From Sinimarinibacterium arenosum (GTDB lineage Bacteria > Pseudomonadota > Gammaproteobacteria > Nevskiales > Nevskiaceae), in the NCBI RefSeq assembly GCF_005047655.1, contig NZ_SUKF01000012.1, positions 1 to 59,208 on the forward strand: a DNA stretch of 59,208 bases, in the 5' to 3' direction. The position numbers were made by a program, and so were the translations under genes. Below are positions 1,986-6,354 of the stretch, piece after piece (the stretch's first letter is position 1; every line of letters starts with the position of its first letter). The notes beneath the pieces are model-generated. The model was not told the DNA's origin and did not search any database. It saw only the letters and a program-made list of their open reading frames with translations.

Positions 1986-3167
1986 CTAGAACGCATCCCC
2001 CGGCACGTGCACCCAGCCGCTCATCAGCACACGGGCGCTGCGGGACATGATGGCTTTCTTGACGACCCACTCGCCGTTGACCCGCTCGGCCTGCGCGCCG
2101 ACACGCAGGGTGCCGGAGGGATGGCCGAAGCGCACGGCTTCACGATCACCGCCACCCGCCGCCAGATTCACCAGCGTGCCGGGAATCGCCGCGGCGGTGC
2201 CGATGGCGACGGCGGCGGTGCCCATCATGGCGTGATGCAGCTTGCCCATGGACAGCGCGCGGACGCAGAGGTCGATCTCGCCCGCGTCCACCGTCTTGCC
2301 GGATGAGCTGGTGTAGGTCTTGGCCGGCGCGACGAAGGCGACCTTGGGCGTGTGCTGGCGCTTGGCGGCCTCGCCCACGTCCTTTATCAGGCCCATCTTC
2401 ACGGCGCCATACGCACGCACGGTCTCGAACATGGCCAGCGCCTTGGGATCGCCGTTGATGGCTTCCCGCAGCTCGGTTCCGGTGTAGCCGATGGCGTCGG
2501 CGTCGACGAAGATGGTCGGGATACCGGCATTGATCATCGTGGCCTTGAACGTGCCGACGCCGGGCACCTCCAGATCGTCCACCAGGTTGCCGGTCGGGAA
2601 CATGGAACCGCCGGCGTCATCCGCCGGATCGACAAACTCGACCTGGATTTCGGCGGCCGGAAAGGTCACACCGTCCAGCTCGAAGTCGCCGGTTTCCTGC
2701 ACCTGCCCATTCGTCATCGGCACATGGGCGATGATGGTCTTGCCGATGTTGGCCTGCCAGATGCGCACGGTGCAGAGGCCGTCCTTCGGCACACGTGCCG
2801 GGTCGATCAGGCCGTTGGTGATCGCGAACGGGCCGACCGCGGCGGACAGGTTGCCGCAGTTGCCGGACCAGTCGACGAAGGCCTTGTCGATGCCGACCTG
2901 ACCGAACAGGTAGTCGACGTCGTGATCCGGCTGGCTGCTCTTCGACAGGATCACGGTCTTGGACGTGGACGAGGTCGCGCCGCCCATGCCGTCGATATGC
3001 GCACCGTAGGGATCAGGGCTGCCGACGACGCGCAGCAGCAGTTTGTCGCGCGCCTCACCCGGCACCTGACAGGCTTCCGGCAGGTCCGTCAGCTTGAAAA
3101 AGGTTCCTTTGCTGGTGCCGCCGCGCATGTAGGTGGCGGGAACTTTGATCTGTGGTGCTTGAGCCAT
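1986..3167 (-). CDS. prpF: 2-methylaconitate cis-trans isomerase PrpF
   Basis: PrpF isomerises the 2-methylaconitate made by AcnD so that aconitase B can complete methylisocitrate formation in the cytosolic methylcitrate cycle. The 393-residue product has MRGGTSKG (about 14-21), STSKTV with Lys70, and SGNCGN with Cys104. The Lys-to-Cys spacing equals that reported for catalytic Lys73/Cys107 of the Shewanella enzyme. I chose the ATG at 3165-3167 because GAGGA lies 7 bases upstream; the longer open frame to 3239 only reads through a palindromic repeat (VIPAFAGMT-like peptide). It is last in the prp operon but separated from acnD by about 510 bases holding a GIY-YIG gene and REP-like repeats. 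Confidence 0.93.
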   Translation of the reverse strand: MAQAPQIKVPATYMRGGTSKGTFFKLTDLPEACQVPGEARDKLLLRVVGSPDPYGAHIDGMGGATSSTSKTVILSKSSQPDHDVDYLFGQVGIDKAFVDWSGNCGNLSAAVGPFAITNGLIDPARVPKDGLCTVRIWQANIGKTIIAHVPMTNGQVQETGDFELDGVTFPAAEIQVEFVDPADDAGGSMFPTGNLVDDLEVPGVGTFKATMINAGIPTIFVDADAIGYTGTELREAINGDPKALAMFETVRAYGAVKMGLIKDVGEAAKRQHTPKVAFVAPAKTYTSSSGKTVDAGEIDLCVRALSMGKLHHAMMGTAAVAIGTAAAIPGTLVNLAAGGGDREAVRFGHPSGTLRVGAQAERVNGEWVVKKAIMSRSARVLMSGWVHVPGDAF

Positions 3168-3203
3168 GGGGAGTTCCTCAGTCGGCTTCAATATGTAAAT
3201 GCC

Positions 3204-3285
3204 CGTCATTCCCGCGCATGCGGGAATCCAGTGACGCACTCAATCCCGCCGCGGTCCTGGATGCCCGTCTTTCGCAGGCATGACG
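3204..3285. repeat. REP-like inverted pair (REPIN-like) upstream of prpF
   Basis: Two copies of a palindromic repeat face each other. Copy A (3204-3231) reads CGTCATTCCCGC...GCGGGAATCCAG. Copy B (3257-3285) is a diverged copy in the opposite orientation, CTGGATGCCCG...CAGGCATGACG. They are 25 bases apart, so the RNA could fold into two hairpins or one long one. Such GTCATTCCCGC/GCGGGAATCCAG repeats are a common class of extragenic palindromes in proteobacteria. In the prp transcript they precede the prpF ribosome-binding site by about 25 bases and could slow decay or reduce read-through. Confidence 0.85.
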
Positions 3286-3335
3286 ATTCAAAAATCCTTG
3301 TTGCTGCTGCGGCGCGGGTGAAGGCGATTCTCCAG

Positions 3336-3623
3336 TCAACGGCAAACGTCTTCATACAAATCCTTCCACTGCGGATTCTGCGCCTCGATCAATTTCAGCT
3401 TCCAGGCTCGATTCCATTTCTTGATCTGCTTCTCGCGCGCAATCGCGGCAGCCGGGTCGTCAGTCTGCTCAAACCAGACGAGCTGGTGGACGTTGAATCG
3501 CTTGGTGAATCCGTCCACCGCGCCCGTCTTGTGTTCCCAAACGCGCCGGATGAGATCGTTCGTCATGCCTACATACAGTGTGCCGTTTCGACGGCTCGCC
3601 AGCAGGTAGACGTAGTAGCTCAT
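3336..3623 (-). CDS. Small GIY-YIG nuclease family protein (UPF0213-like)
   Basis: A 95-residue stand-alone GIY-YIG domain. YYVYLLASRRNGTLYVG (3-19) carries the paired YVY and YVG strands. NDLIRRVWEHK (22-32) contains the catalytic-type Arg and the His/Lys helix, and the later REKQIKKWNRAWKLKLIE block with its Glu is typical of the family. Proteins of this size are widespread; most have no proven substrate, and some related small GIY-YIG proteins cleave DNA. The gene lies on the same strand as the prp operon between acnD and prpF, with a REP-like repeat 14 bases upstream and an inverted pair downstream. No good ribosome-binding site is visible before the ATG at 3621-3623. The setting suggests a small mobile or repeat-associated unit rather than a prp gene. 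Confidence 0.88.
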   Translation of the reverse strand: MSYYVYLLASRRNGTLYVGMTNDLIRRVWEHKTGAVDGFTKRFNVHQLVWFEQTDDPAAAIAREKQIKKWNRAWKLKLIEAQNPQWKDLYEDVCR

Positions 3624-3637
3624 CCGGCGCGGTGTTT

Positions 3638-3664
3638 CTGGATTCCCGCTTTCGCGGGAATGAC
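3638..3664. repeat. REP-like palindrome between acnD and the GIY-YIG gene
   Basis: CTGGATTCCCGC...GCGGGAATGAC with a near-perfect 10-base stem. This is the least diverged of the three copies in the window and has the same orientation as copy B (3257-3285). It begins 14 bases before the GIY-YIG start codon (minus strand) and lies 13 bases after the acnD stop codon. Confidence 0.85.
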
Positions 3665-3677
3665 CCGGTACAAGGGA

Positions 3678-6284
3678 CTACGCCGCCTTGCTGGACTCCA
3701 GGAAGTCCTGGGCGAATCGCTGCAGCACACCACCGGCGTCGTACACCGAAACCTCTTCGGCGGTATCCAGACGGCAGGTCACCGGCACTTCGGCCGTCTC
3801 ACCGTTCTTGCGGTGAATGACCAGCGTCAGGTCGGCACGCGGGGTGCGCTCGCCGACGACGTCATAGGTCTCGGTACCGTCAATGCCCAAGGTCTTGCGT
3901 GTGGTGCCCGGCTTGAACTCCAGCGGCAGCACGCCCATGCCGATCAGGTTGGTGCGGTGAATGCGCTCGAAGCCTTCGGCAACGATCACTTCCACACCCG
4001 CCAGACGCACGCCCTTCGCCGCCCAGTCACGCGACGAGCCCTGGCCGTAGTCGGCACCGGCGATGATGATCAGCGGCTGCTTGCGGTCCATGTAGGTTTC
4101 GATGGCTTCCCACATGCGCATGACGGTGCCGTCCGGCTCGACGCGCGCCAGCGAACCCTGCTTGACCTGACCGTCCACCACCGCCATCTCGTTGACGAGC
4201 TTGGGATTGGCGAAGGTCGCACGCTGCGCGGTCAGATGATCGCCGCGATGGGTGGCGTAGGAATTGAAGTCCTCTTCCGGCAATCCCATCTTGTGCAGGT
4301 ATTCACCGGCGGCGCTGTCCATCAGGATCGCGTTGGACGGCGACAGGTGATCGGTCGTGATGTTGTCCGGCAGCACCGCCAGCGGGCGCAGACCCTTGAG
4401 CGTGCGCTCGCCGGCCAGCGCGCCTTCCCAGTACGGCGGACGGCGGATGTAGGTGCTCATCTCGCGCCAGTCGTACAGCGGGCTGACCTGGTCCTCGACG
4501 ACCTTGAAGTTGAACATCGGGTCGTAGACCGAGCGGAACTGTTCCGGCTTCACGCACTTGGCGACGATGGCGTCAATCTCTTCGTCGCTCGGCCACAGAT
4601 CCTTCAAAGTGACGGGCTTGCCGTCCTTGTCGGTGCCCAGCACGTCCTGCTCGATATCGAAACGGATGGTGCCGGCGATAGCGTAGGCCACCACCAGCGG
4701 CGGCGAGGCCAGGAAGGCCTGCTTGGCGTATGGATGGATGCGGCCGTCGAAGTTGCGGTTGCCGGACAGCACCGCCGTCGAGTACAGATCGCGGTCGATG
4801 ATTTCCTGCTGGATCTTCGGGTCCAGCGCACCGGACATGCCGTTGCAGGTAGTGCAGGCAAACGCGACGATGCCGAAGCCGAGTGCTTCCAGATCACCCA
4901 GCAAACCGGCTTCCTTCAGATACAGCTCAACCGTCTTGGATCCGGGCGCCAGTGACGACTTGACCCAGGGCTTGCGTGTCAGACCCTTGGCGACGGCGTT
5001 GCGCGCCAGGATGCCGGCGGCGACGACGTTGCGCGGGTTGGAGGTGTTGGTGCAGCTGGTGATGGCGGCGATGATCACAGCACCGTCCGGCATCAGGCCC
5101 TGCTCTTCTTCCTTCAGCGCCTTGTCGAGGTCCACTGCGAGCCCGCGCTCATGCAGTGCGGTGGTCGGAAGACGCTTGTGCGGGTTGGACGGGCCGGCCA
5201 TGTTGCGCACGACCGTGGACAGATCGAACTTCAGCACGCGCTCGTACTGCGCGGTTCTCAGCGCATCGCCCCAGAAGCCGGCGGCCTTGGCGTAGGTCTC
5301 GACCAGCTTGACCTGCTCGTCCGTGCGGCCGGTGAGCTTCAGATAGTCGATGGTCTGTTCGTCGATGTAGAACAGCGCGGCCGTGGCGCCGTACTCCGGG
5401 CACATGTTGGAAATCGTCGCGCGATCGCCGATCGACAGGGTCGAGGCACCTTCGCCGTAGAACTCCAGATACGCGCCGACGACTTTTTCCTTGCGCAGGA
5501 ATTCGGTCATGGCGAGCACGATGTCGGTGCAGGTGATGCCGGGCTGGCGCTTGCCGGTCAGCTCTACGCCGATGATGTCCGGCAGACGCATCCACGATGC
5601 GCGGCCAAGCATGACGTTCTCGGCTTCCAGACCGCCGACGCCGACGGCGATGACACCGAGGGCGTCAACGTGCGGCGTGTGGCTGTCGGTGCCGACACAG
5701 GTATCCGGGAATGCGACGCCGTCCTGCACGTAAACCACCGGAGACATTTTCTCCAGGTTGATCTGATGCATGATGCCGTTGCCCGGCGGTACCACGTCGA
5801 CGTTCTTGAACGCCTTCTTGGTCCAGTTGATGAAGTGGAAGCGGTCATCGTTGCGGCGGTCTTCGACGGCGCGGTTCTTGGCGAACGCATCCTTCTCAAA
5901 ACCGGCGTATTCGACGGCCAGCGAGTGGTCGACGATCAGCTGCGTCGGCACCACCGGATTGACCAGCGCCGGGTCGCCGCCCATGTCGGCGATCGCATCG
6001 CGCAGGCCGGCAAGGTCGACCAGTGCAGTCTGACCGAGGATGTCGTGGCAGACCACGCGCACCGGGAACCACGGGAAGTCCAGATCGCGCTTGCGCTCGA
6101 TCAGCTGACCCAGATAGTCGTTGATCTTCGCCGGCTCGGCCTTGCGGACGAGGTTTTCGGCATGCACGCGCGCGGTGTACGGCAGCGTGTCCCAGGCGCC
6201 TGGCTTGATCGCGTCGACGGCGGCACGCGCGTCGAAGTAATCCAGCTGGGTGCCCGGCAGGGATTTGCGGTAATTCGTGTTCAT
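3678..6284 (-). CDS. acnD: Fe/S-dependent 2-methylisocitrate dehydratase AcnD
   Basis: An aconitase-type [4Fe-4S] hydro-lyase that dehydrates 2-methylcitrate to 2-methylaconitate and replaces PrpD. The product is 868 residues, the usual AcnD length. It has the aconitase domains in order, with cluster cysteines at 411 (SCTNTS), 477 and 480 (CTTCNG) and the swivel-domain motif GADYGQGSSRDWAAKG near the C-terminus. It starts MNTNYRKSLPGTQLDYFDAR, as AcnD proteins do, which separates it from AcnA. The ATG at 6282-6284 has GAG 8 bases upstream; the 18-codon extension to 6338 does not look coding. Gene context (prpB, prpC, prpF, prpR) supports AcnD. It is followed by the REP/GIY-YIG insertion. Confidence 0.95.
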   Translation of the reverse strand: MNTNYRKSLPGTQLDYFDARAAVDAIKPGAWDTLPYTARVHAENLVRKAEPAKINDYLGQLIERKRDLDFPWFPVRVVCHDILGQTALVDLAGLRDAIADMGGDPALVNPVVPTQLIVDHSLAVEYAGFEKDAFAKNRAVEDRRNDDRFHFINWTKKAFKNVDVVPPGNGIMHQINLEKMSPVVYVQDGVAFPDTCVGTDSHTPHVDALGVIAVGVGGLEAENVMLGRASWMRLPDIIGVELTGKRQPGITCTDIVLAMTEFLRKEKVVGAYLEFYGEGASTLSIGDRATISNMCPEYGATAALFYIDEQTIDYLKLTGRTDEQVKLVETYAKAAGFWGDALRTAQYERVLKFDLSTVVRNMAGPSNPHKRLPTTALHERGLAVDLDKALKEEEQGLMPDGAVIIAAITSCTNTSNPRNVVAAGILARNAVAKGLTRKPWVKSSLAPGSKTVELYLKEAGLLGDLEALGFGIVAFACTTCNGMSGALDPKIQQEIIDRDLYSTAVLSGNRNFDGRIHPYAKQAFLASPPLVVAYAIAGTIRFDIEQDVLGTDKDGKPVTLKDLWPSDEEIDAIVAKCVKPEQFRSVYDPMFNFKVVEDQVSPLYDWREMSTYIRRPPYWEGALAGERTLKGLRPLAVLPDNITTDHLSPSNAILMDSAAGEYLHKMGLPEEDFNSYATHRGDHLTAQRATFANPKLVNEMAVVDGQVKQGSLARVEPDGTVMRMWEAIETYMDRKQPLIIIAGADYGQGSSRDWAAKGVRLAGVEVIVAEGFERIHRTNLIGMGVLPLEFKPGTTRKTLGIDGTETYDVVGERTPRADLTLVIHRKNGETAEVPVTCRLDTAEEVSVYDAGGVLQRFAQDFLESSKAA

Positions 6285-6354
6285 GGCTGTGACTCGATGG
6301 CGATGGGCGGCGGCGCGTGGCGCGGCTCTTTCAGGCACTTCATTACGCTAGGAT

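Follow-up and report, generated by a model that had tools for sequence, protein, structure and literature searches.

What is a small nuclease gene, bracketed by palindromes, doing between two genes of the methylcitrate operon? The window (the whole stretch of 59,208 nucleotides that was analysed) has a gap of 510 bp (3168–3677) between acnD, which ends at 3678, and prpF, whose ATG lies at 3167, both on the minus strand. As a sequence-only reading of this DNA had described, the gap holds a 95-aa GIY-YIG nuclease gene, co-oriented with the operon and preceded at a distance of 14 nt by a palindrome, P1 (3664–3638), which reads GTCATTCCCGCGAAAGCGGGAATCCAG on the gene strand. In the operon direction the order is acnD stop, P1, 14 nt, GIY-YIG gene, P2, P3 and prpF ATG (Table 1). 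That reading had counted three copies of the palindrome, with an inverted pair after the gene. P1 and the inverted P3 bear this out: their arms are 93% complementary over 27 nt, each forms an 8-bp stem with a 4-nt loop, and both fold as single-stranded DNA with a z of about −4. (Allowing up to three mismatches, the window has two matches to the motif, and 100 shuffles have none.) P2, on the other hand, is degenerate, and its hairpin is not distinguishable from shuffles by single-stranded DNA folding (z −0.84).

Table 1. Features of the acnD–prpF region, in window coordinates
Feature	Coordinates	Strand	Basis
GIY-YIG nuclease gene, 95 aa, sole gene of the unit	3336..3623	-	PF01541 57.7 bits; AlphaFold2 pLDDT 93.8
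P1, CGTC-type palindrome (tag GTC, 8-bp stem, GAAA loop, CCAG tail)	3638..3664	-	arm complementarity, shuffles, folding
P2, degenerate palindrome, oriented like P1, 3' of the gene	3257..3284	-	folds no better than shuffles
P3, inverted palindrome pairing with P1, downstream unit end	3205..3231	+	arm complementarity, shuffles, folding
Whole proposed unit, palindrome to palindrome	3204..3665	-	layout as in units of relatives
acnD, upstream neighbour, host operon, outside the unit	3678..6338	-	TIGR02333 1781 bits
prpF, downstream neighbour, host operon, outside the unit	1986..3167	-	TIGR02334 765 bits

In the genome as a whole (4.54 Mb, 24 contigs) the motif occurs three times at up to three mismatches (reversed control, 0), and two of the three copies lie at this gene; with only three copies genome-wide, the repeat is not an abundant resident REP here. 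The longest prpF frame (1986–3239) opens inside P3 and would add a palindrome-encoded peptide, MRHWIPACAGMTG; the ATG at 3167 is likely the true start. The assumption that acnD and prpF are normally adjacent needs qualifying: relatives do not always have them close together, the gap being as short as a few bases or as long as about 1.2 kb, and some relatives have another gene in it. In three congeners (G054, G057 and G058; loci L129, L145 and L132) it is filled by a conserved SRPBCC-like gene, named by eye, that is absent from the window. Hydrocarboniphaga (L007, G079) has a 76–77% identical GIY-YIG protein in the same acnD–prpF gap, so inheritance is possible at the window's site. The site of the unit is not special to methylcitrate operons.

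The protein belongs to the GIY-YIG superfamily. PF01541 is its only Pfam family match at E ≤ 0.001, scoring above the curated cut-off of 22.6 bits (Table 1). Over 98 sequences, Y17, R27, F39, L48, E64, R72 and K75 are fully invariant, and Y6 and H31 (0.99 each) and N83 (0.98) nearly so, which fits an active GIY-YIG nuclease; the conserved residues presumably have the catalytic roles assigned to them in this superfamily. The AlphaFold2 model is confident, and the best Foldseek match is UPF0213 (1zg2, E 4.6e-4), the sole one below 0.001, followed by the branched-DNA nuclease Slx1-Slx4 (E 0.015), with I-TevI and UvrC domains only at E 0.6 and above. A sequence search of the PDB gave 1zg2 and four repeat-protein matches, 1zg2 alone being meaningful. 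A preference for folded DNA would suit the recognition of hairpins. Phage records contained no match to the protein at E ≤ 1e-10.

Do the palindromes accompany the gene elsewhere? A GTDB genome scan with the protein as query, blind to palindromes, gave 374 relatives. The best 80 of these were used; they come mostly from metagenome bins, with titles naming Proteobacteria, Candidatus Roizmanbacteria, Chlorobi, Omnitrophota, Chloroflexi, Planctomycetes, a cyanobacterium and an archaeal bin. At these 80 loci the core motif, searched without its tag, is found 136 times no more than 300 bp from the gene, or 1.97 per kb, versus 72 times in the other 969 kb of these loci, or 0.074 per kb. A generic finder, which asked for a hairpin of at least 7 pairs between TC and CC, was applied to 106 non-duplicate loci (the best 80, the one in the window, and 25 taken from genomes related to that of the window) and gave 4.90 versus 0.197 per kb, about 25-fold; a palindrome lay within 200 bp of the gene at 88 of the 106 loci, on both sides at 63, and none was found by this finder at the other 18. 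The sequence-only reading had staked its proposal on just such an enrichment near homologous GIY-YIG genes, and on this point the proposal stands. (A hairpin search with arms of at least 10 found almost none, because the stems are only 8–9 bp.)

Such placement is not typical of genes at these loci. Among the 80, a palindrome lies within 200 bp at 70, on both sides at 51 and head-to-head at 36, versus 76, 8 and 2, respectively, of 725 other ORFs of at least 80 aa in the same loci; generic intergenic placement is therefore disfavoured. Nor does just any GIY-YIG gene have palindromes, since distant paralogues, including the two others of the window's own genome, had one within 300 bp in 0 of 18 cases. 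At the same distance, palindromes were found at 88 of 106 close GIY-YIG loci (18 of 26 in the set from relatives), and at 3/26 loci of Y1 transposases, 3/27 of DUF559 genes and 2/27 of prpF. These control figures leave out loci cut by contig ends (4/30 Y1, 3/30 DUF559 and one distant GIY-YIG locus) and 3/30 prpF loci: the window's own, the unit-bearing one of G079 and one cut short.

The association extends to other collections. The gene was present in 31 plasmid records, and palindromes lay within 300 bp in 11 of the 13 records read. Several Rhizobiaceae have 9-bp-stem palindromes, such as TCATCCTCGGGCTTGACCCGAGGATCC at both unit ends, and in a record labelled N. gonorrhoeae there are dRS3-type copies on both sides, the nearest of which are not head-to-head. 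The Planktothrix and Novosphingobium records had no palindrome by the generic finder. In the Planktothrix plasmid copy (L287 1800–2510) there are GTCATTCTGAG-type flanking repeats that the finder missed, perhaps another class of palindrome. In Azospirillum lipoferum (L281 1989–2282) the gene separates sufB from sufC within the suf operon and has one palindrome pair upstream and another downstream. A Bradyrhizobium-centred set had the gene in 81 of 100 genomes, with 1–6 matches each; among 30 of its loci, palindromes, many of type GTCATGGCCGGGCTTGTCCCGGCCATCC, lay within 200 bp in 21 and on both sides in 14, of which 13 were head-to-head. Two GIY-YIG matches of equal score lie about 250 bp apart in one contig (G182:C710:169-435 and 687-953), possibly as a tandem copy.

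The palindromes have a preferred layout around the gene. The nearest upstream copy is in plus orientation in 63/80 cases (opposite in 17) and the nearest downstream copy in minus orientation in 55/71 (opposite in 16), so that 46 of 63 two-sided units are (+,−). Palindrome sequence differs from unit to unit, yet an identical string is found at both ends of 23/63 units versus 3.5 in shuffled pairings (maximum 11 in 10,000), and a matched inverted repeat (score at least 15) between the 200-bp flanks, that is, terminal inverted repeats, is present in 67/105. On quick maximum-likelihood trees of these short proteins, the CCGGC-type palindromes, present in 10 units from four family groups, require one change (in 500 shuffles, a mean of 9.6 and a minimum of 6), and the length class, an 8-bp stem with a 4-nt loop versus a 9-bp stem with a 5-nt loop, two changes over 105 rows (in 300 shuffles, a mean of 21 and a minimum of 17). 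The first stem letter (A/G) did not cluster on the protein tree (4 changes for 4 rows). In type and length class, then, the palindromes accord with the protein tree, gene and palindromes diverging together.

To what kind of repeat do these palindromes belong? CGTC-tagged REPs were catalogued in 2013, apparently without a dedicated transposase (Di Nocera, De Gregorio and Rocco, PMC3733652). Neisserial dRS3 and rickettsial RPE-4/6 belong to them, and S. meliloti, A. lipoferum, Neisseriae and Bradyrhizobium are among their hosts (PMC3733652); the GIY-YIG gene was found here in all four. Of 149 loci, 29 had no palindrome within 200 bp, leaving 120 nearest palindromes for comparison. The tag is CGTC, TGTC or CCTC in 113 of these, the TC being preset by the finder; 114 fall, by total length, into the 8-bp stem/4-nt loop or 9-bp stem/5-nt loop class; the first pair is A-T in 108; and 117 have a CCA tail, of which the finder itself required the CC. 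Dispersed head-to-head pairs were seen in 18 pairs, chosen as pairs, of G079, G062, G091 and G111, the window's own genome having its three copies only. By tag, stem and loop, first pair and tail the palindromes of the unit fit among the CGTC-tagged REPs.

Do the units move? If so, DNA homology between two of them might start and stop in or just past the palindromes, and this unit-limited pattern was found in six pairs. L013 and L014, on two contigs of one genome, are 86% identical over 349 nt; the others are L009/L014 (86%), L012/L024 (88%), L014/L039 (85%), L065/L072 (85%) and L061/L082 (87%, with only 38 nt of downstream flank for comparison). On re-checking, the flanks of the six pairs show no further homology beyond fragments of palindrome type and, in L013/L014, 63 nt that match at the contig ends. 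(L042/L059 and L037/L059 were set aside as unit-limited pairs, having flanking homology in common; flanks are shared, and orthologous or partly so, in L026/L101/L102, L056/L060 and L042/L059.) One genome, G160, holds three copies that are 99% identical over about 344–378 bp, on three contigs with flanks that cannot be aligned, and with a 30-nt end found only in these three. In all three the N-terminal third of the gene is missing, and therefore their own enzyme cannot have moved them alone.

A further sign comes from the genus g3, in which one site, found in 16 of 18 genomes, has unit and palindromes in five and neither gene nor palindromes in eight with both flanks aligned; three are not judgeable. 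The junctions of filled and empty sites have diverged, and no target-site duplication was seen by eye, either there, where no junction is clean, or in 28 unit flanks. Lastly, about 1.8 kb from a unit, L024 (3485–3569) has both unit ends and their gene-side spacers fused without the gene, with identities to the unit ends of L012 of 95% (44 nt) and 93% (43 nt); this reads clearly as a gene-less derivative of the unit. Most of the 29 fused-end candidates match in the palindrome alone and are uninformative, L035 being a weaker case. Taken together, the unit-limited homology, the filled and empty sites, the 99%-identical copies and the gene-less derivative indicate mobility in the genomes compared.

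At the level of whole genomes the picture is more mixed. Among 117 relatives, 30 carry a close gene (cut at about 80 bits), and with counts that include the unit's own copies, carriers have a median of 18 palindromes versus 0 for non-carriers. At least three are present in 24/30 carriers versus 13/87 non-carriers (Fisher 1.6e-10), leaving six carriers with fewer; within the same family only, the figures are 19/23 versus 11/35 (p 1.6e-4). Whole-genome counts covered 50 of the genomes that supplied the 80 loci, and 47 of these have one copy or more; the five palindromes of Leptolyngbya PCC 6406 all lie at the gene, within 600 bp. The proposed partnership would suffer if the repeat were as common in genomes lacking the gene; it is commoner with the gene overall, but the difference is not significant in genus g3 (median 38 versus 0.5, p 0.13). 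Similarly, in the Bradyrhizobium-centred set at least five copies of one palindrome class are found in 65/81 carriers versus 8/19 non-carriers (p 0.003), but no contrast is left once the set is divided into near and far relatives (the first 60 genomes and the remaining 40). In the window's genus the two carriers hold 3 and 0 palindromes and non-carriers up to 37, and palindrome-rich genomes lacking the gene include G060 (37), G101 (74) and G113 (32). G174, G190 and G247 have 174, 52 and 52 CGTC palindromes of the 9/5 class and no GIY-YIG match at E ≤ 1e-10, which could reflect gene loss or another mobiliser.

The explanation that best accounts for these data, with a probability of roughly 0.6, is that the unit represents a minimal kind of mobile element, in which inverted CGTC-tagged REP palindromes enclose a small GIY-YIG nuclease gene and the enzyme acts as mobiliser. 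The sequence-only reading had likened the locus to the RAYT–REP relationship, and that likeness has gained from the enrichment by homologous genes, its absence at distant paralogues, the matched ends, the co-inheritance and the signs of mobility. We propose the GIY-YIG enzyme as the missing partner of the CGTC REPs, an unrelated protein in a RAYT-like role. The enzyme would recognise the hairpins of its own palindromes, as single strand or cruciform, and would cut them at the CGTC tag or next to it; the unit, and palindrome pairs without the gene, would then copy or insert elsewhere with the assistance of host replication or repair, comparable to RAYT/TnpA-REP on GTAG REPs. In the window, such a unit would have entered the acnD–prpF gap or been inherited there. 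Comparison of the loci demonstrates co-occurrence of gene and palindromes, head-to-head preference, co-divergence, homology stopping at the palindromes and joint presence or absence at one site, and from these we infer that the GIY-YIG protein itself mobilises the palindromes, cleavage and transposition included. The explanation is weakened by the 18 of 106 loci with no detected palindrome, the nearest copies in the opposite orientation, the gene-less palindrome-rich genomes, the carriers with fewer than three palindromes, the lack of significance in genus g3 and the loss of the correlation on stratifying the Bradyrhizobium-centred set, as well as by the missing target-site duplication and the truncated gene of the G160 copies.

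The main rival is homing into existing palindromes. GIY-YIG domains drive the homing of introns and free-standing genes, and a parasite of this type could cut CGTC palindromes, or the spacer of a pair, and have its gene copied into the break by recombination between palindromes that spread otherwise. This would suit the gene-less palindrome-rich genomes, the likeness of the unit to a palindrome pair whose spacer has taken up a gene, and the known targeting of REPs by insertion sequences (PMC1525189). It is nevertheless unlikely, given that the palindromes lie at the gene in the window's genome (2/3) and in Leptolyngbya PCC 6406 (5/5), that the eight empty sites with both flanks aligned lack palindromes, that the gene-side spacers are short and common to different units, and that the gene-less pair of L024 retains both of them. 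Could the GIY-YIG gene instead be a passenger, riding between palindromes moved by another enzyme, such as a RAYT? Y1 transposases are present in many of the same genomes, but Y1 genes have other inverted repeats, these palindromes being at only 3/26 Y1 loci, and the number of palindromes shows no dependence on whether a genome has a Y1 gene (72 do, not counting weak matches; p 0.42). The best Y1 match of the window's own genome has an E of 2.4e-4, Di Nocera et al. report no RAYT flanked by CGTC units (PMC3733652), and palindrome class tracks the GIY-YIG tree. A RAYT as driver is thus disfavoured (Y1 was searched in 117 relatives, and the flanks of 26 of 30 loci were used), and the passenger explanation is improbable. 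Less probable still, and very much so, is that the palindromes are merely useful to the host, as terminators or mRNA-stabilising hairpins of the nuclease gene with no role in movement. The hairpins of P1 and P3 are stable, and REPs have RNA roles (PMC3733652), but such a function would not call for conserved unpaired ends (tags in 113/120, CCA tails in 117/120), for dispersal of the same palindromes as gene-less inverted pairs, or for an upstream hairpin as regular as the downstream one.

Is the GIY-YIG unit the only one of its kind? At 20/27 loci of DUF559 (PF04480) genes in the relatives, an CCCTCTCC/GGAGAGGG motif lies no more than 300 bp from the gene (9.3 versus 0.31 per kb); these genes are bracketed by CCCTCTCCC..GGGAGAGGG palindromes (L177–L206; L131 2680–3170), on both sides in 16/27. 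The same motif is found at 0/26 Y1, 0/26 close GIY-YIG, 1/18 distant GIY-YIG and 7/27 prpF loci; three DUF559 genes occupy the acnD–prpF gaps of G062, G078 and G103, which may explain part of the prpF figure. Like the GIY-YIG unit, this is a nuclease gene with palindrome brackets of its own, of a different nuclease family and with a different palindrome, and palindrome-borne orphan nucleases may form a wider class. At somewhat less than even odds, the GIY-YIG lineages would serve the entire CGTC REP superfamily as its autonomous partners, every lineage recognising the hairpin of its own palindrome class and spreading the gene-less pairs of that class, with DUF559/CCCTCTCCC as a second, unrelated instance of a general class. 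If this broader reading is true, GIY-YIG chemistry, with no transposase, powers phylum-crossing minimal mobile DNA. If the enzyme is the mobiliser at all, palindrome mobilisation arose at least twice, by unrelated chemistry, and a unit of about 360–460 bp crosses phylum boundaries. A matched nuclease–palindrome pair makes the question of a transposase for the CGTC REPs, which include dRS3, RPE-4/6 and rhizobial repeats, directly testable.

How does the unit compare with known systems? Free-standing GIY-YIG homing endonuclease genes are selfish nuclease genes in intergenic sites. The unit differs from them in having no long DNA-recognition domain and in its palindrome brackets, and although filled and empty sites exist, the units sit in many unrelated flanks. 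With classical insertion sequences it shares terminal inverted repeats; the target-site duplication was not seen. The UPF0213 proteins (PDB 1zg2, 1ywl) also consist of one small GIY-YIG domain and include the nearest solved structure, but their identity is 26–28% and they are not known to lie near palindromes; the distant paralogues here had none (0/18). Slx1-Slx4, the second-best fold match, acts on branched DNA, but is eukaryotic, Slx4-dependent and non-mobile. No report of a GIY-YIG/REP partnership was found among the open-access matches listed, and GIY-YIG is not mentioned in RepRanger (PMC12306157) or the HUH survey (PMC6006769).

With the CGTC REPs the palindromes share the tag, the 8- or 9-bp stem, the 4- or 5-nt loop, the A-T first pair, the CCA tail and, in the 18 pairs chosen as such, the head-to-head arrangement; the difference is that the 2013 study found no associated enzyme (PMC3733652), whereas here the repeats bracket a GIY-YIG gene. 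The REPtrons and REPINs formed by RAYT (TnpA-REP) and GTAG REPs likewise have a small enzyme gene between inverted palindromes that are also dispersed as inverted pairs, and a palindrome class co-inherited with the enzyme (PMC3116915, PMC8266576). They rely, however, on an HUH Y1 transposase and a GTAG tag, whereas the Pfam match and the fold matches of the present protein are all GIY-YIG, the tag is of the CGTC type and the spread between phyla is wide. Of the systems compared, RAYT/GTAG REPtrons are the closest working parallel, yet the enzyme is unrelated, so the unit is not a RAYT.
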